Shown one piece after another: positions 3,408 through 29,003 of a DNA stretch of 40,222 nucleotides (the stretch's first letter is position 1; each line of letters starts with the position of its first letter). Under the pieces are notes generated by a model. It did no database searches and was not told where the DNA came from. It saw nothing but the letters and a program-made list of their open reading frames with translations. This DNA comes from a virus. Made by a program: the position numbers and the translations under genes. The stretch spans positions 1 through 40,222 of IMG/VR virus record IMGVR_UViG_3300049811_000205, one strand, 5' to 3'.

Positions 3408-5378
3408 CTAGAAGAACTCCGACAGCGGTAGGTTTTTTTCTTGGCGCTGTGCGATCGCCTCGGGCGTGAGGTAGTACGCATACGAGCGGCCATCGTCAGT
3501 GCGCACTCTGCGCCGCTCCATCCCAATGGAGCGTGTGAGTATCCTACCGATGCGCATCTGAACCTTTGTGTCGAGCTTCGTGAGCTCGCCACGGAGCGCT
3601 TTGTTGTGCACCTCGCCTATGGTCACATGGAAGTCCGGGTCCCCTTGGCAGTAGCCCACGTGCGTGCGCAGGTACTCCTCTATGGGCTGCTCCCACTCGT
3701 CGCTGGGCATAGCCTCCTCTTGGAGGCGCTTGGCGTCCTCCGGGGGCACCTCCGGGTATTCGCCCCCGTTGCGCACCGCGTGGTACGCCTCTGCGAAGAG
3801 CTGGTCGCGGTTATCGGTGAGCCACGCAAAGTCCACGGTGCCCTGGAGATTCACGATCCAGTACCGCCTGTTGCCGGTGGAGTCGTGGAGCATCTGCGTT
3901 TCGTTGGTCGTGAGCGCGAAGACAAAGCGCCGCTTGTGCCGCTCCGTCACCTTGCCGTACGGGGACCGGTACTCGTCAAAGGTGCTGCTGATGGTGCTCT
4001 TGAGCTTCGCAGCATCGCTCTTGTACATTGCGACACCTTCGTCGAGGTCCACAAGCACCCCGCCGCGCATCTGCAAGAAGAAGTCCTTGTCGCTCACGTT
4101 GCCAGAGTAGCTCTTGTACCATGGTCCCCCGATGATCCGCAGAAGCGAAGTCTTGCCGATACCCTGCCCACCCGAGAGCACGAGGCAGTGGTCGAACATA
4201 CAGCCAGGGGACACCATGCGCTTGACCATGTGTATGAGCCACTGCGCTCCGACACCTCTGTGGTAGTCGTTCTCCTCGACGCCTGTCGCGCGTGGCAGCC
4301 ACGTTGCAAGGCGTGGTACACCGTCCCACTCCATGCCGTTCAAGTAGTCCATCACCTCATCGTATGAGTTGCGATGCGCCACGGCCTCCATAGCGTCGTA
4401 CACGATGTTTTTCGATATGCCGGGGAGCATCTCAACGTTCTCTTGGAGCACCCGCACAGCGTCGAGCACGTCCCGCTCCCGCAATGGCTCCCCGTCAAAC
4501 TCGATCGCCTGCTGGAATAGGTTGTACCTGAGCTTCCCGCGATAGAGCGGATGCTGCTCGAAGACCATGCAGGCGTTGGTCATGTCCTTTATGGTCACGA
4601 GGTTCTTACTCTTGCGCAGCACCAGCGCCGCCTGGTCCTCGGGAGCGATCTGCACCGGGGAGGGTTCCATGCGCCGCGCCTCCTCGGTCCGTGCGATGGA
4701 CCGGAAAACGGTCTTCAGTTCCGTCTCAGAGAGCGGCGGGTCGAATGTGCGGTTGATGCGCTCCACGACCGGCCATATAACGGGCTCCCACGCGCTCTGT
4801 GGCTCGTTCTGGAGCAAGGTACCGATCACCGAGGCCATGGAGTCGTTCCTGCTGCCCTTCGTTGCTTGTAGGGCCATTCTGAGCGTCTTGCGCTGCTTTT
4901 TCCCCTCGCCAAAGAGCTCGATGGGGAACGGTGCGTAGTTCGCAAAGCGCACCACCTCATAGACACCCGTCGCACCCGGCACCTTCGGCGTGATCACCGA
5001 GGGAGGGGCTACGACAAACCCGCCATCTGAGCGCAGGTCCACGTGCGGGAGATGCGGGTACGCGCCAGCGGACACGGTAAGCCCTGGGTGGTACTGGTAG
5101 TAGAGCTGGAGGCCGCCGTTGCCGGTCTTCACGGTGTAGGTCTCGGGGAACACGGACGGGTCGCCACCTGCATACGTGTCAACGTCCACGACCGTGATGC
5201 CGCTTATCTTGCCCGTCACGATGCCCCAGTTGCAGTCTCCGTAGCGCTCCTTCCATGCGTCAATCTCATCATCTGTCGCGCACCTTGACTGGTATTCTTT
5301 CCATGGGATAAGTGGTTTCTTGTCCTTACCCACGGGGATGAGGGACATGCCTTGCGCGACGTATGAGAGTATGTTCAT
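3408..5378 (-). CDS. Prim-Pol primase fused to VirE/D5-like helicase
   Basis: A 656-residue protein. Residues about 1-170 form an N-terminal bifunctional primase-polymerase domain: the metal-binding pair is VVDVD (residues 63-67), and TGNGGLQLYY follows near 85, then VDLRSDGG. In this family the position after GGL is usually His; here it is Gln. Residues about 340-600 form a VirE-type SF3-like helicase with Walker A GGQGIGKTS near residue 400, LVDLDEG, and TTNETQML followed by GNRRYWI. It would prime and unwind the phage genome. No separate DNA polymerase gene was found, so host polymerase or this domain must extend. It begins after a structured leader of about 100 nt. Confidence 0.88.
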   Translation of the reverse strand: MNILSYVAQGMSLIPVGKDKKPLIPWKEYQSRCATDDEIDAWKERYGDCNWGIVTGKISGITVVDVDTYAGGDPSVFPETYTVKTGNGGLQLYYQYHPGLTVSAGAYPHLPHVDLRSDGGFVVAPPSVITPKVPGATGVYEVVRFANYAPFPIELFGEGKKQRKTLRMALQATKGSRNDSMASVIGTLLQNEPQSAWEPVIWPVVERINRTFDPPLSETELKTVFRSIARTEEARRMEPSPVQIAPEDQAALVLRKSKNLVTIKDMTNACMVFEQHPLYRGKLRYNLFQQAIEFDGEPLRERDVLDAVRVLQENVEMLPGISKNIVYDAMEAVAHRNSYDEVMDYLNGMEWDGVPRLATWLPRATGVEENDYHRGVGAQWLIHMVKRMVSPGCMFDHCLVLSGGQGIGKTSLLRIIGGPWYKSYSGNVSDKDFFLQMRGGVLVDLDEGVAMYKSDAAKLKSTISSTFDEYRSPYGKVTERHKRRFVFALTTNETQMLHDSTGNRRYWIVNLQGTVDFAWLTDNRDQLFAEAYHAVRNGGEYPEVPPEDAKRLQEEAMPSDEWEQPIEEYLRTHVGYCQGDPDFHVTIGEVHNKALRGELTKLDTKVQMRIGRILTRSIGMERRRVRTDDGRSYAYYLTPEAIAQRQEKNLPLSEFF

Positions 5379-15325: not shown

Positions 15326-15340
15326 ACCGTTGACAACGGT
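15326..15340. promoter_or_regulatory. 15-bp perfect palindrome over the -35 box (operator)
   Basis: ACCGTTGACAACGGT is a perfect inverted repeat around one central base. It covers the -35 hexamer TTGACA of the accessory-operon promoter, so a bound dimer would block polymerase. I found no second copy in the window. Confidence 0.65.
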
Positions 15341-15358
15341 TGCCCATGGGTGTATACT
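15330..15358 (+). promoter_or_regulatory. Strong sigma70-type promoter of the accessory operon
   Basis: TTGACA (15330-15335), a 17-nt spacer and TATACT (15353-15358): the best promoter match in the window. The leader is about 50 nt and A/C-rich (ACTCACTAACAAATAACATT) without a Shine-Dalgarno site. Confidence 0.8.
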
Positions 15359-15414
15359 GTAGGTAGGTCAAGAGAACATTATAAGACAACAATTACTCAC
15401 TAACAAATAACATT

Positions 15415-15939
15415 ATGAACCAAAAAGACTTACTCAAACGCGCAATCAACTTCGACAACAAAGAGGCACGACTGCTCTTCATTACCAACTGGCTCGAAGA
15501 CATCAACTGGCACTCTGAAAACAAGCTCTTTGGAGAGCGCAACATTGACGAGTTTACAGAACATTTCCTCGATGGTGTCCAGTGGCTACTCATGGCGCTT
15601 AACCCAGGCAACTATTGTGACTCATTCATTGCCAACCACGAAAAAGAACTGGCACCATACCGCAAGGCGATACTGAACAGTAAGACGCACAATCGCGGCA
15701 CAATCACATTGCCATGTGGTCGCAGTATCGGTGAGAGCACCATGTTTGACCTTAAGCGAGCGCAAAATGGTTTCTCCTTCTTCTCACACCTTACAGGATA
15801 CGGACTTTGTGAAGGATGGAACAACACTACCGGCATCGAGTTTGTAAAAGAGCTTGAGGAGATATTGCACAGCTTTGACGCCGAGGATGAGGAACGCGCT
15901 AATGTTCACGCAGCATACGCTCGTGCCTACGCAGACTAA
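15415..15939 (+). CDS. Accessory protein of unknown function, 174 aa
   Basis: First gene of a three-gene plus-strand operon set into the minus-strand structural cluster. It is a soluble, acidic, mostly helical protein (KDLLKRAINFDNKEARLLFI, FTEHFLDGVQWLLMALNPG) with a GTITLPCGRSIGES segment and an acidic C-terminal helix. No enzyme motif or membrane segment was recognised. Composition is more AT-rich than the neighbours, consistent with recent gain. A superinfection-exclusion, anti-defence or host-takeover role is possible only by position. Confidence 0.7.
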   Translation: MNQKDLLKRAINFDNKEARLLFITNWLEDINWHSENKLFGERNIDEFTEHFLDGVQWLLMALNPGNYCDSFIANHEKELAPYRKAILNSKTHNRGTITLPCGRSIGESTMFDLKRAQNGFSFFSHLTGYGLCEGWNNTTGIEFVKELEEILHSFDAEDEERANVHAAYARAYAD

Positions 15940-15962
15940 TTACCAACTAACCAACAAACATT

Positions 15963-16331
15963 ATGACACACGCATCAATATTCGCAGCAGGACTCAATAA
16001 GCAGGTTGCAAAACGAGTCCCTGACACAAAAAACTTTACCATTGCTAGAGCAATAGATAGCCTCGAAGCAGCAAACAATAAGATAGTGAAAGAGGCAGGC
16101 TACTCTTGTGGGTTGGAGAACTTCCCACGACAGCGAGGCAAGGTTGTGACTGGCTTCTTTTCTAGCCCAGATTACCAGAACGAAAAACTGTACTACACAC
16201 TTATCAAAGATGGCTGGCGCAACGCAGGCTATGGAGCAGCCTATTATTGGAAAGTGCGACGTGGCCCAGTTATCTTGGGTTATAGCGAGGGCGACATTAC
16301 AATTTGGGAAGAAAAAGATATAACCAACTAA
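15963..16331 (+). CDS. Accessory protein of unknown function, 122 aa
   Basis: Second gene of the operon, 23 bp after the first. It has an N-terminal helix pair (FAAGLNKQVAKRV, ARAIDSLEAANNKIV) and an aromatic-rich C-terminal half (YYTLIKDGWRNAGYGAAYYWKV, GDITIWEE) that looks like a small beta-sheet. The leader CCAACTAACCAACAAACATT is typical of this genome. No family was recognised. A small DNA- or protein-binding factor is one option. Confidence 0.65.
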   Translation: MTHASIFAAGLNKQVAKRVPDTKNFTIARAIDSLEAANNKIVKEAGYSCGLENFPRQRGKVVTGFFSSPDYQNEKLYYTLIKDGWRNAGYGAAYYWKVRRGPVILGYSEGDITIWEEKDITN

Positions 16332-16336
16332 CCACC

Positions 16337-16531
16337 ATGAAACACTACACCATAGGAGAAATACACCGCCTTGGTCTTCTCAAAAACCACAAGGGACAGC
16401 CATACACCGACAAGGCAACTGTCTCACGAGTGCTCAATGGGCAACCGCACAAAAAAGTCACTACGCCTTTTGGGGTTGCAAAGACTTTTCCTCAGTCTGT
16501 GATTGATTCTCTAAACGCACGCTGGCATTAA
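16337..16531 (+). CDS. Probable small HTH DNA-binding protein, 64 aa
   Basis: Starts at ATG 16337 (MKHYTIGEIHRLGLL). The arrangement TIGEIHRLGLL, a Gly-rich turn and DKATVSRVLNG has the length and pattern of an HTH, and PFGVAKTFPQSVIDSL could add a third helix. As last gene of the operon whose promoter carries a palindromic operator, it is a candidate autorepressor. An alternative upstream ATG (16304) would overlap the previous gene. Recognition as HTH is by eye. Confidence 0.62.
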   Translation: MKHYTIGEIHRLGLLKNHKGQPYTDKATVSRVLNGQPHKKVTTPFGVAKTFPQSVIDSLNARWH

Positions 16532-16611
16532 GGCCAGCGACAAATGCCTCCGCTTGCCTTTTCCCAAGTTCAATAGAAGCCTTTTTGAGTTCCTCCCTAC
16601 GTTTTAATTTG

Positions 16612-19353
16612 TCATCTGATGTACGCTGCATATTGTTCAGGTTTTATTTGTTCTGCTTCTAAAAGCCTTTTTGCAAGGATATTTAATTTTTTAGTAAGTT
16701 CTTGTGTGGTTGGATAATTTGCCTTCCTTTTTATTTCATCAAGACTACTAACCTTTGCTTTTCCTCTTCCTAAACTGTTATCTATAAAGTTAACCGTAAA
16801 TCCTTCATTTTTCAAGCGTTCTGCAACCTGCAATGAGCCAATGTGATTTTGTGCAACAACTTTTGTTGGCACAAGTCTGCCACCCTCATCAGCGTTATTT
16901 ATCATTCGCGCGACCACACCATTCTCAAACGAATCGAACGGATCGCGGTACACATAGTCAATAACAACTTTTTTCCCTGCATCTAGTGCCTCATTTATTT
17001 TCTTGATTGCAGAGTTGTATGAAGACAAGTTAGAATCTAACACCGCCGCCGCACCATCAAGTTCTCTACTTATTTTAGGTATACCCTTCAATGCAGAAGA
17101 TTTGCCCGTACCACTTCCTCCAGCAGTCAAAATCACATAGTCCCCTTGTCTTTTAAGTGCTTGTGTCCATGCTTTTTTAGCAAGATACGAAGACGGTTCT
17201 TGTACTGCTGCTGCATTACTTCCAACATACCCAACATCTGTAAACAAAGGTCGAAAGTTGTCAGTGTTTATGACCTTACCCCCAGGCCCAGATAGTTTAG
17301 GATTGGAGAAATACTCACTAAGTAGGCCATCCTCATTTTCAATGATTTTGTTGTATGCCGCTTCCTCAATTTTTTTACTTTGTGGGTCAAGGCTCAAGTC
17401 TCGTTCAAATTGTCGTGTCCCTGGGGATTGCGCTATTGACGCTGGTGCTGGCTGTGCTTTACTAGCCCCCATGGGACTATTATTCATACTCGTACTGCTG
17501 GGGATTGCGCTTTCGTCCAGGGATTGATCGTCAAGCGACTCCAAAAGCTCGCGCAGTGCACGTTGCTGGTCTTTTGGCCCCACCGTGCCAGCGTTTAATA
17601 CCTTGTCTGCAACGTCCATAAGGCTGGGCTTTATTGCTGTGCGTATGCTGCCTTGGAAGCCTGTTTTCGGTACAGTGTCGGGGTAAATCGTACGCAAGTC
17701 CTCAGCAAACACTACTAGGTCACTCGGTTTGGCACCGTCATAGCCGTATGTGCGTGAGGTAGTATCAAGGCGGTCTGCCACTTCTTTGAAGTAAGGCGTA
17801 GACAATGCCTCTCCTTCTAAGCGACGAAGGTTCACCGCTGCGCTTGCCTCGGGGTCTACTTTGATACCCATGGTGCGAGAGGTCTTGAAAATGCTGTTAT
17901 CAGCCTCGTCCACAAGGTTCCTGAGCACTGCATAGTCCTTGTTGAGTGCGCGTATGTTCCCATCGTCTATCTGGTCGAGTGTGCTTCGGTACACGTCACG
18001 GAAGGTGTCGTAAATAGACTTAGTACCACCATCTGCTTTAATCAGAATATCGTCCAGTCCTTCCACACGAGAGTTTTCCCGCTTCATCTTCGAGAAAAGG
18101 CGGTCACGCGCGTGAACGGCCAGTGCATCCATGCGTCCTAGGTTGTCTATGTCCCGTAGGGCGGTGTCGTAGAGTTTCTGTATGGAAGCCATCTCAGCAT
18201 CGGTCATACTTGACGTGCTCATGCGCTTAACCTTGCCACGTTCGAGGTAAAGCCCGTTCTGGCGCAGGATGGTATCAAGCTCCGCAAGGGGCTTTTGCAT
18301 ACTCACCTTGGTGTCCGGTAGCGCCTTGATTGCTTCCTCCAATGACTGCCCGACTGCCTTGCGTTGGCTGTCTATAACCTCGTACTGTTTGGCGACTGCT
18401 TCTCCAGCAACACGAGAAGGTCGTGCGTCTCGTGCTCCACTCTCAGCAATGTCGAGCATGTCCTTCATAGCTTTGCGAGTTGGTGCGTCCGTCTGAGTTA
18501 CGAGTGAAATGGTGTTGTCTGGTACGTTTACCTCGATAGCCTTTCCTACTGCGGGAGCTGATCTGCGTATCCTCTCAGCGCGAGCGGCGCGGTCTGCAAG
18601 GTTATCTTGCACGTTGGAAACGGCACGAGGGACACGTCCAGCTAAGTCCTTGGCGGCTTGTGTGACACCTGGGGCGACGTTAGGAATTGACGGTACGTTT
18701 ATGTCAGACACAGCGTCTATTGCCCCACGAGCTGCTTGCTTGGTGGTGTCTACGCCAGTCTTTAACCCCTGTTCGACCACCTCCTTACCTTTTGCAAGTG
18801 TTCCCAAACCAAAGCGGTCGAGCGCAAGCTCCAGCACACCAAGCGTTGCATCTATGTCTCGTCCTCGCTCCGGGTTTGCTTCTTTGTACGCCTGTAGTTT
18901 TTGGTATGCGTCCACAAGGCCAGTATCCTGAGCGACCTTTTTAAGGTCGGCAGAAACACTGTCCTCGGTTTCCTGCGTGGTGAACAGCTTACCCGCCGTT
19001 GTGACACCTCGGCTTATGAGGTCGCCCACACCTCCCGCAACCTGTCCTAGCTGTTGGAAGGCGGTGCGTGCAAAGCCCTGCTTCGCATCAAGTCGCGCCT
19101 GGCCCGCTTCGGTGACAGTCTCACCACGTTGGTTGAGGTCTTGACCTACACCTAAGAAGCCTTCTTTAAGGTCGTTTGGTATGTCAGAAACAACACGGCT
19201 GAATAAACTTCTCTTTTGAGGTTGTAGAGCCTCAGAAACAATAGATTGCTTGCCTTGTCGTGCCTTGGCAATATCGCCCATGATTAGGGTGGTACTTACA
19301 CCTTGTGCTTTAAGCTCTCGGGCTCTTTGCAATTCTTGTGCTGATAGTGCCAT
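16612..19353 (-). CDS. Large internal virion protein with C-terminal zeta-toxin-like kinase domain
   Basis: 913 residues. About 1-640 is a long helical, Ala/Lys/Asp-rich region (KEGFLGVGQDLNQRG, AAKDLAGRVPRAVSNVQDN) like ejected or internal head proteins. From about residue 735 comes a P-loop domain: VILTAGGSGTGKSSALK (Walker A near 745), AAVLDSNLSSYNS, KKVVIDYVYRDPF, a long helix, then LVPTKVVAQNHIGSL. This matches zeta-toxin/PezT-type kinases, which phosphorylate UDP-N-acetylglucosamine or nucleotides. The C-terminal 250 codons are visibly more AT-rich than the rest, suggesting a gained domain. The partner gene follows (ends at 19355). Confidence 0.78.
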   Translation of the reverse strand: MALSAQELQRARELKAQGVSTTLIMGDIAKARQGKQSIVSEALQPQKRSLFSRVVSDIPNDLKEGFLGVGQDLNQRGETVTEAGQARLDAKQGFARTAFQQLGQVAGGVGDLISRGVTTAGKLFTTQETEDSVSADLKKVAQDTGLVDAYQKLQAYKEANPERGRDIDATLGVLELALDRFGLGTLAKGKEVVEQGLKTGVDTTKQAARGAIDAVSDINVPSIPNVAPGVTQAAKDLAGRVPRAVSNVQDNLADRAARAERIRRSAPAVGKAIEVNVPDNTISLVTQTDAPTRKAMKDMLDIAESGARDARPSRVAGEAVAKQYEVIDSQRKAVGQSLEEAIKALPDTKVSMQKPLAELDTILRQNGLYLERGKVKRMSTSSMTDAEMASIQKLYDTALRDIDNLGRMDALAVHARDRLFSKMKRENSRVEGLDDILIKADGGTKSIYDTFRDVYRSTLDQIDDGNIRALNKDYAVLRNLVDEADNSIFKTSRTMGIKVDPEASAAVNLRRLEGEALSTPYFKEVADRLDTTSRTYGYDGAKPSDLVVFAEDLRTIYPDTVPKTGFQGSIRTAIKPSLMDVADKVLNAGTVGPKDQQRALRELLESLDDQSLDESAIPSSTSMNNSPMGASKAQPAPASIAQSPGTRQFERDLSLDPQSKKIEEAAYNKIIENEDGLLSEYFSNPKLSGPGGKVINTDNFRPLFTDVGYVGSNAAAVQEPSSYLAKKAWTQALKRQGDYVILTAGGSGTGKSSALKGIPKISRELDGAAAVLDSNLSSYNSAIKKINEALDAGKKVVIDYVYRDPFDSFENGVVARMINNADEGGRLVPTKVVAQNHIGSLQVAERLKNEGFTVNFIDNSLGRGKAKVSSLDEIKRKANYPTTQELTKKLNILAKRLLEAEQIKPEQYAAYIR

Positions 19354-23896: not shown

Positions 23897-24562
23897 CTAA
23901 GCATCCCAGGTTATCGGGAGCGAGGTAAACAGAGCATCGACTTGTATCTTCTTGTCTCCCCAACAATGTCCACCAAGCGTAGGGCCAAAGGTGTCAATCA
24001 TCCGAAACCCGAGAGAGCGTACTACAGGGAGAATGTCGTCAATGAGCGGCGCACCTTCGTTGTACGGGACAAACGAAAGCTCAAGAAGTAGATACTTGGC
24101 CTTGCGTATCGTCTCCTTACCACCTTCTATGATGTCAAGCTCGCTTCCTTGCGTGTCAATCTTAATGAAGTCGTACAGGGAACCAGCAAAAAGGTCATCT
24201 AGTCGCTGTATCTGCTTCATTTCGGATATTGGAGCAGAAAACGCACCTGTGCGCTCCTTGTAGAAGGAGGAGCCACCACCCACAATGTCGTCGGGGTTGA
24301 CATAGAAGGTCTGCTCACATGCTTGCGAGCCCAAACACGCGTACACAATGTTGAACGGGGACGAATTGAGGAAATACTTGTCCCTCTCGTTGCACTCCAC
24401 ACCTGTTATCGCAGCATCGGGGTAGAGCTCATGGAACATCTTGGAGAAGTGCCCATGGGCCATGCCAATATCAAGCATGGAGTATATCGGGCCTAAGCCT
24501 TTGAGGTGCCACTTCATGTACCCGACTGCCTCGTCGGGTGTAGGGCTAGCGTACTTTATCAT
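23897..24562 (-). CDS. FkbM-family SAM-dependent methyltransferase
   Basis: 221 residues. The SAM-binding motif is SMLDIGMAHGHFSKMF, followed by ITGVECNERD, then the family mark DFIKIDTQGSELDIIEGG and LLLELSFVPYNEGAPLIDD. FkbM enzymes O-methylate sugars and other hydroxyls. It overlaps the glycosyltransferase gene by 17 nt, so it probably methylates the sugar that the partner adds to a virion protein, a host surface glycan or DNA; the target is inference. It sits among structural genes. Confidence 0.88.
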   Translation of the reverse strand: MIKYASPTPDEAVGYMKWHLKGLGPIYSMLDIGMAHGHFSKMFHELYPDAAITGVECNERDKYFLNSSPFNIVYACLGSQACEQTFYVNPDDIVGGGSSFYKERTGAFSAPISEMKQIQRLDDLFAGSLYDFIKIDTQGSELDIIEGGKETIRKAKYLLLELSFVPYNEGAPLIDDILPVVRSLGFRMIDTFGPTLGGHCWGDKKIQVDALFTSLPITWDA

Positions 24563-26801
24563 ACCAAGTTTGCATTACCTTATCCCATGAGAACGACTGA
24601 GCCGCTTTCTGTATTGCGTCTCGGTCTACTCCTGACATAGCATCCTTAATGGCTTGTATGTACTCCTCCTTTTCGGTGACGGGTATCTGCTCTCCGGTCA
24701 GTTGGGTTTCTTTGAGCGCTGCAAAGCCCGAGGTAATGGGGTACACTCCGGCAGCTTGCATCTCTCGGGCGGTAATGCAGTCAATCTCGGGAAACTCTGT
24801 AGGGTAGAGCCACACCCCGCTTGCGAGCATCTCCTTCGCAAGCTGTTTCTGTCCCACACGCCCGTGGTAGGTAATCCCGTCCTGTTGTAGTTTGGCTTTC
24901 ATGGTCTGCATCCACGCCATAGCCTGTGGGTTGTCCTTCTCCACCTTCTCAAACGTCTCCCAGCCGTAGAAGACGTGAAGCTCTGCGTCTGGAACCGCTT
25001 TGCGTATGTCAGGCCACCAATCAAGGATGTGCTCCAATCCACGGTTAGGGGCTGAGGAGTAGATAATACGCTTCGGGTTGCGCTCCACGAGGTTCCAGAA
25101 CCTGTCTAGGTCGATACCGTTACCTACAACCACCACCTTTTCATCTGGCACCTGGGGATAGAGAGAACGATGGTACTGCGTTTTGACGAAGAAATAGTCC
25201 ATCCGCGCTATGCGCTCGGGGGTGAAGTCTTCACTGTTTCCAACATCGTGCATGTCGAATATCACCTTGCGGGCGTTCCACGGGACATCAAGCATCATTG
25301 GCATACGCCACAACCACAGCACATCAAAGTGGTCTGCTTTGTTGAACGTCCACACGTTCTTGTACGTCACACCGTTTACCGTCTTCCCTTCAGGGGGATG
25401 TTCGCGACCGTTGTACACAACCACCTCCCAGCCCTTAGCTGCAAAGCGTCGGGTAAGCTCTATGACTGCCGTCTCACTCCCTCCTATTCCTTTTCCGTCC
25501 TGGTCACCGTCGCTCCATTCCTCAGCCGATACGCCGCAGTACACGGCAATGCTGTTCTTGGGCCATTTCCTGCACGGCATAGTCTTGCGTTGCAGAGAAA
25601 GGATGCGAGGGTCGTCAGCTAAGGTGCTCGGGACAGCCTCTAGGAGCTTTTCTACAAGCTCTGGGTGAGTGGAGTGGAGGTAGTCTCCTAGCTTTTTATA
25701 GGTCTTAGCTAGGTTTTCGTCGTTCCGCATCTTCGTTGCGAGTTCCAGTAGGGTGCGGTCGTGCTCGGTGTTGAACTTGGACACAAGGTACTCCGCAAGC
25801 TCGTTGGCTTCGTCGAAGTTGCCCAGGTGAAGGTGCGCGAGAGCAGCGATAGCCTTGGCGTCGTGCGCCATGAGCATGGGGCGGTGCATCACACCATCAG
25901 TAGGTTCTACGATTGCACGTGCCTGGTTGATACAAGTGAGCACCTGTAGCCACTTTTCATCTGAAAGATATACTCGGGCCTTGTACACATGAGCGTAAGG
26001 ACACCGTTCGTTCTCAAGGAGTGCGTCATTGTAGGCCATCAGTGCTTCACGTTTCCGGTCGAGCTTCTCGAAGCACTCACCCATCAAACACTTGGCCTCG
26101 TAGCGTTCCTCATCCCATCCGCTTTTCTGAATGAACACGGATAGCGTTTTGAGCGCGTCTTCGTAGCGTTTAAGTGCGAGGTACGCTCTCCCTGCGTACA
26201 CATAGGTGCGTGGTTCGTCTGGGTTGGCCTCCATCTCAGCCTCTAAGATAACCAAGTTGCGCTCGTGGTGCTTCAGGTTGTCTTCACGGGTTGCGGTGTG
26301 TACCCGTACCACGTCGTCAATCTTTGCCCATACCACGCCACGCTTGGGGAGGAGGTCTTCGTGTATCTTCCCTACCCAGTGAGCGTGACCGTCGTTCTTC
26401 ACGAGCTGGGTGCGCCAGTGCGCGTCTACCACATTACCGTTGTCGTCTTTGAGGTACTCATAGAGCATCTGTAGGCCGGAACAATTCGTTTCCTCGGCAA
26501 GTGTGACACTCTTGCGGATATTATCTGCACCTCTCACCACATCGTCAGCGTCAAGCCACAGTATCCAGTCGCCCGTACACTGAGAGAAGTTGTAGTTACG
26601 TGCTGCTGCAAAGTCATTCGCCCACTTGAAATGGGACACCTTAGCGTTGTGCCTTTTGCACACTTTTCCCACAGTTTGATTGTCGCCTGTGATTGTCACA
26701 CACACTTCGTCAACGTGCTTTCCAACAGAGGAAAGACACCTGTCGAGTTTTGCAGCTTCTTCGTCATTAGGTGAGCAAATAAGCGCAAGGGAGATTGTCA
26801 T
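24546..26801 (-). CDS. Bimodular glycosyltransferase: GT2 plus TPR plus GT4-like
   Basis: ATG at 26801 (MTISLALICSPND) gives 751 residues. Residues about 1-190 are a GT2 domain, with the DxD-type motif LDADD near 83 and the basic WVGKIHEDLL. About 190-400 are TPR-like helical repeats (AYLALKRYEDALKTL, CFEKLDRKREALMAY). About 420-750 are a GT-B/GT4-like half with GKGIGGSETAVIELTRRF, VVVGNGIDLDRF and EMQAAGVYPITSGFAAL. It could build a disaccharide or glycosylate a virion protein. A single polypeptide with all three parts is uncommon. It overlaps both neighbours (FkbM, small upstream gene). Confidence 0.85.
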   Translation of the reverse strand: MTISLALICSPNDEEAAKLDRCLSSVGKHVDEVCVTITGDNQTVGKVCKRHNAKVSHFKWANDFAAARNYNFSQCTGDWILWLDADDVVRGADNIRKSVTLAEETNCSGLQMLYEYLKDDNGNVVDAHWRTQLVKNDGHAHWVGKIHEDLLPKRGVVWAKIDDVVRVHTATREDNLKHHERNLVILEAEMEANPDEPRTYVYAGRAYLALKRYEDALKTLSVFIQKSGWDEERYEAKCLMGECFEKLDRKREALMAYNDALLENERCPYAHVYKARVYLSDEKWLQVLTCINQARAIVEPTDGVMHRPMLMAHDAKAIAALAHLHLGNFDEANELAEYLVSKFNTEHDRTLLELATKMRNDENLAKTYKKLGDYLHSTHPELVEKLLEAVPSTLADDPRILSLQRKTMPCRKWPKNSIAVYCGVSAEEWSDGDQDGKGIGGSETAVIELTRRFAAKGWEVVVYNGREHPPEGKTVNGVTYKNVWTFNKADHFDVLWLWRMPMMLDVPWNARKVIFDMHDVGNSEDFTPERIARMDYFFVKTQYHRSLYPQVPDEKVVVVGNGIDLDRFWNLVERNPKRIIYSSAPNRGLEHILDWWPDIRKAVPDAELHVFYGWETFEKVEKDNPQAMAWMQTMKAKLQQDGITYHGRVGQKQLAKEMLASGVWLYPTEFPEIDCITAREMQAAGVYPITSGFAALKETQLTGEQIPVTEKEEYIQAIKDAMSGVDRDAIQKAAQSFSWDKVMQTWYDKVR

Positions 26802-27148
26802 ACGGTATCGCAAGTACGAAAGCCTTTATACACTTTCATAAAGTGGTGGAGCTTTCGTTTGTTAGTGAATAAGTCGGGCATAATCTGTTGCAGCTTGAAG
26901 TACAAGCCTGGTGGGAGTGAGGCACCGTGGCGCATGGTCTTTCCTTTGTTGCTGCCAAACTTGGTGTAGTTAGAGTTACGAATCGCAGCGTTCTGTACCA
27001 CAATGGCCTGTGTTTCCATAGGATGTATTTGTGTGTACTCCCGTATGGCTTCGTCTACAGCGTCCCAGTTTTCAGTATGTTGGGCCACGTTCACGACGTA
27101 CACACCTTTGAAGGTGCCGTCGGGATTTCGGACTATGTGTTCTTCCAT
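26798..27148 (-). CDS. Small unknown protein coupled to the glycosyltransferase, 116 aa
   Basis: ATG at 27148 (MEEHIVRNPDGTFKG). A beta-hairpin-like start (KGVYVVNVAQHT) is followed by IREYTQIHPMETQAIVVQNA, a Gly/Lys-rich GSNKGKTMRHGASLPPG and a helical C-terminus. The stop overlaps the glycosyltransferase start (ATGA). No family is recognised; the position suggests a role in the same modification system. Confidence 0.62.
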   Translation of the reverse strand: MEEHIVRNPDGTFKGVYVVNVAQHTENWDAVDEAIREYTQIHPMETQAIVVQNAAIRNSNYTKFGSNKGKTMRHGASLPPGLYFKLQQIMPDLFTNKRKLHHFMKVYKGFRTCDTV

Positions 27149-27429: not shown

Positions 27430-29003
27430 CTAGGAGTTGTATCGCTTGGACACGACACCTGTCTTTTCCCCTCGGTGCTCAATCGTGAGCTCGGTGATAA
27501 TCTGGCGGCTGTCAGCGTCAGCGGTCTTCGCAACCTCCACAACCTGCGTTGGGCGCAAGTACGAAAGGTAGTGGTAGTCGCTGTTGATACCTACCAGGTC
27601 ACGGCCTGACGCTGCGCTCGCAACGTTGCGGTGGAGCATAATCTGCTGCATACCGAAGTCGCTCTCGTACACGTCAACCGACGCAACGAGCTTCTTGGAA
27701 CCAGCCTCCACGTTCTTGGTGCTGCCTCCGGTAAAGCCCGAGATGGTGCGCTTGAGCTTACCACCAACGAAGATAATGTTCGGTACTTCGTCCGTGGATG
27801 CGTAGACCAATTCGAGAAGGTCATTGAAACCAGCCTCGGTGAGGGTCTGCGCGGAAGCCTGGGTCGTAGCGTTCGTGGTGAGCGCTGCAATCACACCCGT
27901 AAGGCGACGAGCGACACCCGAAGCACCCGAAGCGGTCGTGCCAGCCATGAGCGCGAGCTCGATGTCCTTAGCGTGCTCCTTGAGTGCCTTCTCGGTCTGG
28001 TACTGCCACGGGTCAACCACGCCAGTTACAGCGCGTTCAGTGCCCGAAACGGTGATGTTGTCGGTGAAGATTTGCGTCTTGTTGGTCGCACGGCTCGGCT
28101 GAGTAAGGTCAACCGCCGCAAACGACACTGCTTCCACCTGCGCGTTATCGGCTGCGGCTGCAAAGGTGTCGGTTGCGTACTCGTGCAACGTGTTGGTTGC
28201 GTCCGGCCCGCGCTTCAGCATCGAGAGAAGCGGGGTTTTGTCGGGAGATACGTTTGTAACTACGTCGATGAGGTCTTCCCGCCTTACTGCATCGTCGTAG
28301 GTAATACGATGTGTTACGTGTCATTTGACACGGGTAGTTTGTGAGTCTACCTCTGCATGTCGCCATGCAGTTCCGACTATATCATCTCCATCAAGGAGTC
28401 TAGCGTATAGTCTGTGAGGATTCCTGACTATATTACGTTCTTCTTTAAGCCGCTTCAGTTCCGCAAGTATGGCAAACTCTCGCGGGCTGCGTTTCTTTTG
28501 TGCAAAAAGTTCCTTGCGAATAGCAATAAACTCCAGCATCAATTCCGCTTCTTTGTGCTTTGTGACTAGAAACGGAAGAACGAGCGGTAAGAATCGTTCA
28601 TTTCTGCCTAAACCATTTACCAGTAAGTGCCACACAGGTTTTCGCGGATTCCCGTCTTTATCGAATCCGTTTTTCTTGTGTTGGACGTACAAGGGAAGGT
28701 TAAGGCTTTTGAATAGCTCGATTAGGTAGGACGATGTCAAAGAACAAGTTGTTGTGATGCTCGTGTAAGGGACTGGGTATTCCGTGCGCGTTTCCCTTGA
28801 CTTTCTTTGTCGTTGTATCCTCATTGAGATACAACCATCTGCATCAATTAGTCCTGCTAACCAAGCTAAGTTCAGGTCTTTCCTGCTGATTGTCTCCATA
28901 GGTTGAGTTTGTTACGTAGGTAGTACTCATACATTCGGGAGGGTTTCCAGCATATAGCTAGATTTTTTTACATTGGGCCTATTACGTCAAGTCCAATAGC
29001 CAT
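27430..29003 (-). CDS. Major capsid protein, split by a group I intron
   Basis: Exon 2 (27430-28321) encodes AVRREDLIDVVTNVSPDKTP, LHEYATDTF and QTEKALKEHAKDIELALMAG, typical of the SU10-type (DUF5309) HK97-fold capsid proteins. Exon 2 has no start codon of its own. The missing N-terminus is a 14-nt exon 1 (29003-28990, MAIG plus two bases) right after the scaffold gene. Removing 28989-28322 fuses the two in frame to 301 codons. The join is supported by the P1 pairing and the 3' guanine rule, but the exact splice site is inferred from sequence. It would be the main shell protein, with scaffold and portal upstream. Confidence 0.85.
28321..28899 (-). CDS. Intron-encoded LAGLIDADG homing endonuclease
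   Basis: 192 residues. LAWLAGLIDADGCISMRI near residue 15 is a textbook LAGLIDADG motif. No clear second motif follows, so it is a one-motif type expected to act as a homodimer. Coding overlaps the intron core (its last 30 codons are the R and S elements), and the TGA stop overlaps the 3' splice site (28323-28321). It would cut an intronless capsid gene and drive spread of the intron. LAGLIDADG enzymes in phage introns are less common than GIY-YIG or HNH. Confidence 0.95.
   Translation of the reverse strand: METISRKDLNLAWLAGLIDADGCISMRIQRQRKSRETRTEYPVPYTSITTTCSLTSSYLIELFKSLNLPLYVQHKKNGFDKDGNPRKPVWHLLVNGLGRNERFLPLVLPFLVTKHKEAELMLEFIAIRKELFAQKKRSPREFAILAELKRLKEERNIVRNPHRLYARLLDGDDIVGTAWRHAEVDSQTTRVK
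28322..28989 (-). other. Group I self-splicing intron in the major capsid gene
   Basis: Core elements on the minus strand are P-like TGCTGGAAACCC (28952-28941), R-like ACAGACTATACG (28415-28404) and S-like GATATAGTCGGAAC (28383-28370), giving a P7 of GACTATA/TATAGTC. P1 pairs exon ATTGGACT with intron GGCCCAAT, ending in the needed U-G pair, with one A-C mismatch. The intron ends in G at 28322. Length is 668 nt. Exact ends are inferred; a repeated ACGTAA near both borders leaves a second, less rule-abiding join possible. Confidence 0.85.

Follow-up and report, generated by a model that had tools for sequence, protein, structure and literature searches.

How does a phage that may inject a toxin keep its own factory cell alive? 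A compact test of this question is offered by a locus of IMG/VR virus record IMGVR_UViG_3300049811_000205, where a cassette of three plus-strand genes (positions 15326–16531) lies beside a gene whose product ends in a zeta-kinase domain. The window referred to below is the whole stretch of 40,222 bases in this record. Its structural genes occupy the minus strand in the order terminase, portal, capsid, then tail and internal proteins, and the cassette is flanked by fibre genes on one side and the zeta gene on the other, just where an earlier examination of the letters alone (hereafter the sequence-only reading) had placed it. At a probability of about 0.5 we take the cassette for an accessory operon that regulates itself and belongs to a toxin-immunity island, where we infer both the regulation and the immunity. 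The locus also supplies concrete candidates for the parts of such a system: a short open reading frame (ORF) with what we call the GLN motif and the cassette product P2 for the antidote, and the cassette product P3 for the switch.

Were this reading right, host RNA polymerase would transcribe the genes of the cassette, P1-P2-P3, from a strong promoter, and P3 would bind an operator, GTTGNCAAC, over the -35 box and spacer, which would restrain its own synthesis. Exchangeable cargo would fill the first positions of the operon, while P3, and often P2 too, would be retained. The adjoining large virion-type protein would bear an exchangeable C-terminal toxin, a zeta kinase here and a (p)ppApp synthetase in relatives, and toxin-specific protection would come from small genes lying between the toxin and the core of the cassette. 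In the zeta phages this would be a GLN peptide, made from an ORF overlapping the 3' end of the toxin gene and again from the cassette, in the window as the N-terminus of P2.

The argument is comparative and draws on six further records. The phage MW202577 (Manatee Spring) was found by protein search; G001 (L005), G002 (L006) and G003 (L007) were retrieved with a profile of the zeta domain, and G004 (L016, IMGVR_UViG_3300043411_001180) and G005 (L017) with a profile of P3. Five phages thus bear a zeta domain (the window, MW202577, G001, G002 and G003) and two a Tas1-like domain (G004 and G005). Scans of genome contigs with the zeta and P3 profiles found no relative, a search of plasmids with the zeta profile gave no match, and single-sequence scans of viral contigs with P1, P2 and P3 retrieved no relatives.

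The cassette begins with a sigma-70-type promoter, TTGACA-17 bp-TATACT (15330–15358, plus strand), which matches the consensus at 11 of 12 positions and is conserved in MW202577, G001, G004 and G005. It had been called the best promoter of the genome, and shares that rank with an equal-scoring site on the minus strand (TTGACA-16-TATACT, 126–99); its spacer has the optimal 17 bp against 16 in the latter. The perfect 15-bp palindrome that had been described over the -35 box is indeed there (ACCGTTGACAACGGT, 15326–15340, with 7-bp arms and one central base) and is a candidate operator. It contains a core, GTTGACAAC (15329–15337), of which a degenerate second copy, GTTGCCCAT (15339–15347), lies 10 bp downstream. 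Conservation at the same locus in relatives takes promoter and palindrome beyond chance. The pattern TTGnnAACnGTTGnCnAnnGnnnTATAnT has one copy at the cassette locus in the window, two in MW202577, five in G001 and one each, with 1–2 mismatches, in G004 and G005; elsewhere in the sequence scanned of these genomes (for G004 and G005 the fetched parts) it has no match at 0–2 mismatches, and shuffled windows contain 0.2 sites per window at up to 4 mismatches. In MW202577 the cassette is preceded by TTGACAACGGTTGGCAACGGGTATATACTGTA, near-identical to the window's sequence, and there is a second, divergent copy.

When the cassette promoters are aligned, the GTTGNCAAC core is seen to be conserved, often as two copies spaced 10 bp apart, and the spacer is strongly conserved even where the -35 box becomes TTGCAA. 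Such conservation of the spacer despite a changed -35 box suggests an operator and not just a good promoter, and points to the GTTGNCAAC core as the putative operator of these cassettes. The motif is missing from G003, the zeta phage that also lacks P3, and the G002 contig stops short of the position where the promoter would be expected. The same operator-promoter thus stands at the cassette locus of five phages, which we count in favour of an autoregulated operon alongside the presence of P3 in six. A scan of viral contigs for the exact window-style promoter pattern gave no match.

Some smaller features accompany these promoters. A divergent promoter-like site in the window, TTGTTA-17-TATAAT (15378–15406, minus strand), points towards the fibre genes, its evidence being a consensus match at 10 of 12 positions. 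The cassette mRNAs would mostly start with a hairpin of about 20 nt just past the start site (leaders in L004, L009, L016 and L017); the window leader has none. In G001 (L009 3680–3830) an operator-controlled divergent promoter precedes a Lys-rich and hydrophobic peptide of 41 amino acids, MKKFNYKKFWKKYFIKLTMKIFDLLFLLGIGSAMGFQLIRY, which looks like a type I toxin or a holin.

The probable ligand of the operator is P3, a protein of 64 amino acids encoded by the last gene of the cassette (16337–16531, plus strand). It is present in the window and five relatives at 45–58% identity, the protein search giving 59% for MW202577. The helix-turn-helix (HTH) character previously suspected in it is supported by a confident AlphaFold2 model (mean predicted local distance difference test, pLDDT, 92.3), in which a helix and a recognition helix are followed by a two-strand wing and a closing helix. 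The nearest solved folds are those of phage Xis, BldC, RacA and MerR domains (best Z-score 5.3, with 8–18% identity), and the winged helices of Mu repressor and transposase are also among the matches. P3 therefore plausibly belongs to the winged-HTH class, as modelled, and its six members would form a family of their own. From its co-occurrence with the operator, P3 is probably the repressor of its own operon, and the idea of a regulated accessory operon, with one of its own products as the likely regulator, gains in this way from both the conserved operator and the predicted winged-HTH fold.

The other two genes differ in how far they can be followed. Three plus-strand ORFs are open after the promoter (15415–15939, 15963–16331 and 16337–16531), the last two with homologues in relatives. 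None of the three products has a significant match in PHROGs or Pfam, and the searches revealed no homology to tail or replication proteins. The sequence-only reading had called the three genes unknown and AT-rich; their AT-richness is mild, with a GC content of 46.6% against 52.0%. P1 (15415–15939, plus strand; 174 amino acids) has no homologue in any library searched and occupies what appears to be a variable slot: in the cassettes of the other phages the first genes, among them one for an LPD29-domain protein in G004, are unrelated to it, and its comparison with their products showed no relation. P2 (15963–16331, plus strand; 122 amino acids) has homologues in MW202577 and G004 at 35–42% identity (42% in MW202577). 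Its AlphaFold2 model (pLDDT 75.8 overall) comprises a disordered stretch at residues 1–18 and an alpha-beta domain at residues ~19–119, mostly at 80–90; against solved structures the model retrieved low-Z unrelated folds only, with no convincing relative. A weak match of P2 to Streptomyces phages was rejected as spurious, being opposite in strand to the annotated genes.

P2 and P3 sit at the same place in MW202577, with a zeta-type gene on one side and fibre genes on the other. Operon and toxin gene point in opposite directions in the window and in G002, and in the same direction in MW202577, G001, G004 and G005. The suggestion that the cassette is a moron holds as regards its independent promoter. 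A classical moron, inserted into a genome that relatives otherwise share, is not supported, because the relatives have P2 and P3 at this very locus, only the first gene varying, and no integrase is detectable in these records. The alternative suggestion of a defence cassette found no backing, since PADLOC defence models matched neither P1, P2 and P3 nor the zeta gene.

At the same junction G003 has a different cassette (L007 11043–12236) with its own XRE-like HTH protein and a different promoter, which suggests that the toxin/fibre junction is an exchange hotspot. The first gene of that cassette is common to G005 (L017 6633–7193). Between the G003 cassette and the fibre genes lies a gene for an ATP-grasp-like protein of 499 amino acids (L007 12271–13770; named by eye).

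What would the island have to protect against? The large neighbour of the cassette encodes a structural-module protein of 913 amino acids (16612–19353, minus strand), placed after the tail-type and before the fibre genes. In this position it resembles ejected internal virion proteins; on that inference it would be present in the virion and injected. Its C-terminal domain (16612–17340, minus strand) matches Pfam Zeta_toxin (PF06414) at 34.9 bits, the cut-off being 22.3, and the domain is above the cut-off in all five zeta phages. The best solved relative is gonococcal ng_zeta1 (PDB 6eph, E=1.2e-11), with whose Asp56 and Lys115 the window's Asp698 and P-loop Lys751 align; both residues are invariant in the five phages. 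In ng_zeta1 the catalytic Asp precedes the P-loop, a rearranged zeta topology (PMC5923241), and the window domain has its catalytic aspartate ahead of the P-loop likewise. By family the domain is a candidate cell-wall toxin. With 39.9% GC against 52.6% in the rest of the gene, a stronger dip than that of the cassette, the zeta domain is compositionally foreign, and it is exchangeable; that it had been gained, as was proposed, agrees with both facts.

The exchange is visible when MW202577 and G004 are compared. The bodies of their carrier proteins are 67–75% identical, and their ends are zeta and Tas1-like, respectively, the latter with a match to Tas1 at E=1.3e-28. Tas1 is a type VI (p)ppApp synthetase effector. 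G005 shares with these phages the Tas1-like end only, and G003 the zeta end only. A carrier body kept while C-terminal domains are swapped indicates that the large gene is a polymorphic toxin, predicted here on a carrier lacking a detectable MuF domain: the carriers of the window, MW202577, G004 and G005 were scanned for PF04233 with no match. A small ORF directly downstream of the toxin gene, a feature of polymorphic toxins, is present as well. In MW202577.1 the carrier with its C-terminal zeta kinase is labelled ‘thymidylate kinase’ in GenBank (UOF78922.1, L004 27283–29919).

For the Tas1-like toxin of G004 the matching protection can be proposed by analogy. On the 3' side of the synthetase end there is an ORF of 65 amino acids and then an HD_4 small alarmone hydrolase, found in G004 only among the seven records and directly preceded by GTTGGCAACCGTTG, a GTTGGCAAC motif. 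The order of toxin, small ORF and alarmone hydrolase is that of the apk2-iapK-aph1 module, in which iapK and aph1 have been shown to be immunity genes (PMC12226406). The G004 region L016 3412–7021 may accordingly be a toxin-immunity module of the apk type, in a setting that is new: no MuF domain is detectable in its carrier. Within the G004 carrier gene about 350 bp are duplicated in tandem (L016 ~3855–4632), opposite-strand ORF pieces being repeated letter for letter.

The zeta phages have a different small gene next to the toxin. In the window it is a GLN-motif ORF of 56 amino acids (16461–16631, minus strand), a candidate immunity peptide; the ORF shares 20 nt with the zeta gene at the latter's 3' end and runs antisense to the end of P3. 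Equivalent overlapping ORFs of 40–56 amino acids with the motif HAxxFVxGLN are found in MW202577, G001 and G002, and in MW202577 and G001 a second GLN peptide is encoded behind the operator-controlled divergent promoter. In the window the motif recurs as the N-terminus of P2 (MTHASIFAAGLNKQVAKRVP, 15963–16022, plus strand), recognised at E=3.7e-7 by a hidden Markov model (HMM) built without P2; the P2 proteins of MW202577 and G004 lack it. The GLN-peptide HMM has matches only in the four zeta phages that possess P3, in every case close to the toxin, and at the P2 N-terminus in the window; none was found in the synthetase phages G004 and G005 or in G003. Searches of the GLN peptides against solved structures and Pfam found nothing; ng_epsilon1 was not among the matches, though a relation to it may exist.

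The GLN peptide is thereby the best candidate for a zeta antidote, which would act by neutralising the kinase. The earlier supposition that the operon keeps the zeta kinase harmless in the host does not suit the operon as a whole, since P2 and P3 also accompany a (p)ppApp synthetase phage, but may hold for this peptide. A bolder proposal, and to our minds a doubtful one, is that GLN peptides are a new family of zeta-kinase antitoxins encoded twice, once in the late operon overlapping the toxin gene and once in a P3-controlled cassette that host RNA polymerase could transcribe on entry, the window's copy being fused onto P2. Neutralisation of the injected toxin by an incoming genome would then be restricted to cells that express phage genes.

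Several points weigh against the reading of the cassette as an autoregulated operon of a toxin-immunity island. Occurring beside both toxin types, P2 and P3 are not zeta-specific antidotes, so the operon may be unrelated to toxin control. P1 is an orphan without an assigned function, the fold matches of P3 are modest (Z about 5), and the GLN peptide is short (34–56 amino acids), matches no known antitoxin and rests on four phages. A relaxed promoter pattern retrieved seven viral contigs, six of them without P3, P2 or zeta; operator-like promoters in P3-less viral contigs mean that the motif alone is not diagnostic. The cassette might instead be a generic early host-takeover or anti-defence operon at a tolerated insertion hotspot, the toxin/fibre junction, with P3 shutting off early transcription and no product acting on the toxin. 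This is a serious possibility, though at less than even odds: it accommodates not only P2 and P3 with either toxin but also the variable, unrelated first genes, the strong and host-like promoter, and the LPD29 domain, known from polyvalent, conflict-type proteins, that is encoded by a cassette gene of G004. It leaves aside, however, that the toxin-matched hydrolase of G004 adjoins the cassette and is preceded by the same GTTGGCAAC motif, that the operator-driven divergent transcript of MW202577 and G001 encodes the zeta-linked GLN peptide, and that P2 of the window bears that peptide.

No lysogeny gene was found in the records, so an immunity benefit to a lysogen cannot be assumed. With neither integrase nor resolvase detected in them, the usual account in terms of lysogen protection cannot be taken for granted; the system might instead shield the producing cell or set the time of host arrest. 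The same observation bears on the idea that P3 is a lysogeny-type or excision factor of the MerR/Xis kind and that the operon serves a temperate or plasmid-like phage as its immunity or maintenance region. Phage Xis and the Mu repressor/transposase winged helices among the closest folds of P3, and an autoregulated operator with tandem repeats, would suit it, but the neighbours of P3 are structural genes, not replication genes, and no tyrosine or serine recombinase, integrase or resolvase was detected in any of the seven records (unplaced viral contigs); we think it improbable. Least probable by far is a misreading, with a palindrome that arose by coincidence and ORFs that are not real genes. 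The window does have four palindromes of this size, so that ACCGTTGACAACGGT by itself is not significant, and P1 is without a homologue, but homologues of P2 and P3 at the same locus and the conservation of promoter and operator across phages already contradict it for P2, P3 and the promoter, and P1 alone could still be questioned.

The toxin-immunity island, if such it is, has partial counterparts among known systems. To our knowledge, nearly all polymorphic toxins described from phages sit on MuF carriers and belong to temperate phages. The MuF toxins (Jamet 2017, PMC5576092) likewise combine a virion-type protein, an exchangeable C-terminal toxin and a small ORF downstream. Compared with them and with apk2-iapK-aph1 (Paulet 2025, PMC12226406), the present locus has no MuF domain detected in its carrier and no detectable integrase, possesses an extra operator-controlled cassette with its own winged-HTH regulator, and in the window has a zeta kinase as the toxin. 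Zeta-like kinases and RelA/SpoT domains have already been reported fused to MuF or in injected effectors (Iyer 2017, PMC5512222; also PMC5576092 for MuF fusions). The polyvalent proteins described there differ from the simple carrier-plus-toxin arrangement seen here, which has a regulated operon next to it and whose toxin is exchanged among close relatives.

The gonococcal pair ng_zeta1/ng_epsilon1 (PMC5923241, PDB 6EPG/H/I) provides the best structure match and the same topology of an Asp before the P-loop. In that prototype the partner is a small extended antitoxin, whereas the candidate partner here is a GLN peptide without detectable ng_epsilon1 similarity; the kinase, moreover, ends a phage structural-module protein of 913 amino acids and is not followed by an OB domain. 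With phage morons the cassette has in common its own promoter, short accessory genes and, in the window, an atypical orientation, but relatives conserve P2 and P3 at this locus and there is no evidence of lysogeny. P3 itself shares the HTH, hairpin wing and final helix of small winged-HTH binders (Xis, BldC, RacA and the MerR N-domain). In the freely accessible literature searched, no report of a zeta toxin with an internal virion protein was found. That related phages retain the switch and the regulator yet exchange the toxin and the remaining extra genes suggests a toxin-and-antidote island of a type absent from that literature. Four features appear new: the carrier has no detectable MuF domain, close relatives exchange the toxin, the operator/P3 cassette is shared, and the GLN peptide is doubled.

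Two observations concern the window outside the cassette. Shine-Dalgarno sequences are few among most of its genes, with starts of the form ...CTAACC-ATG or ...ACATT-ATG, which may hint at the host. Inside the structural module, the intervals 23897–26813 and 28321–28899 encode a double glycosyltransferase, an FkbM methyltransferase and an HNH endonuclease.
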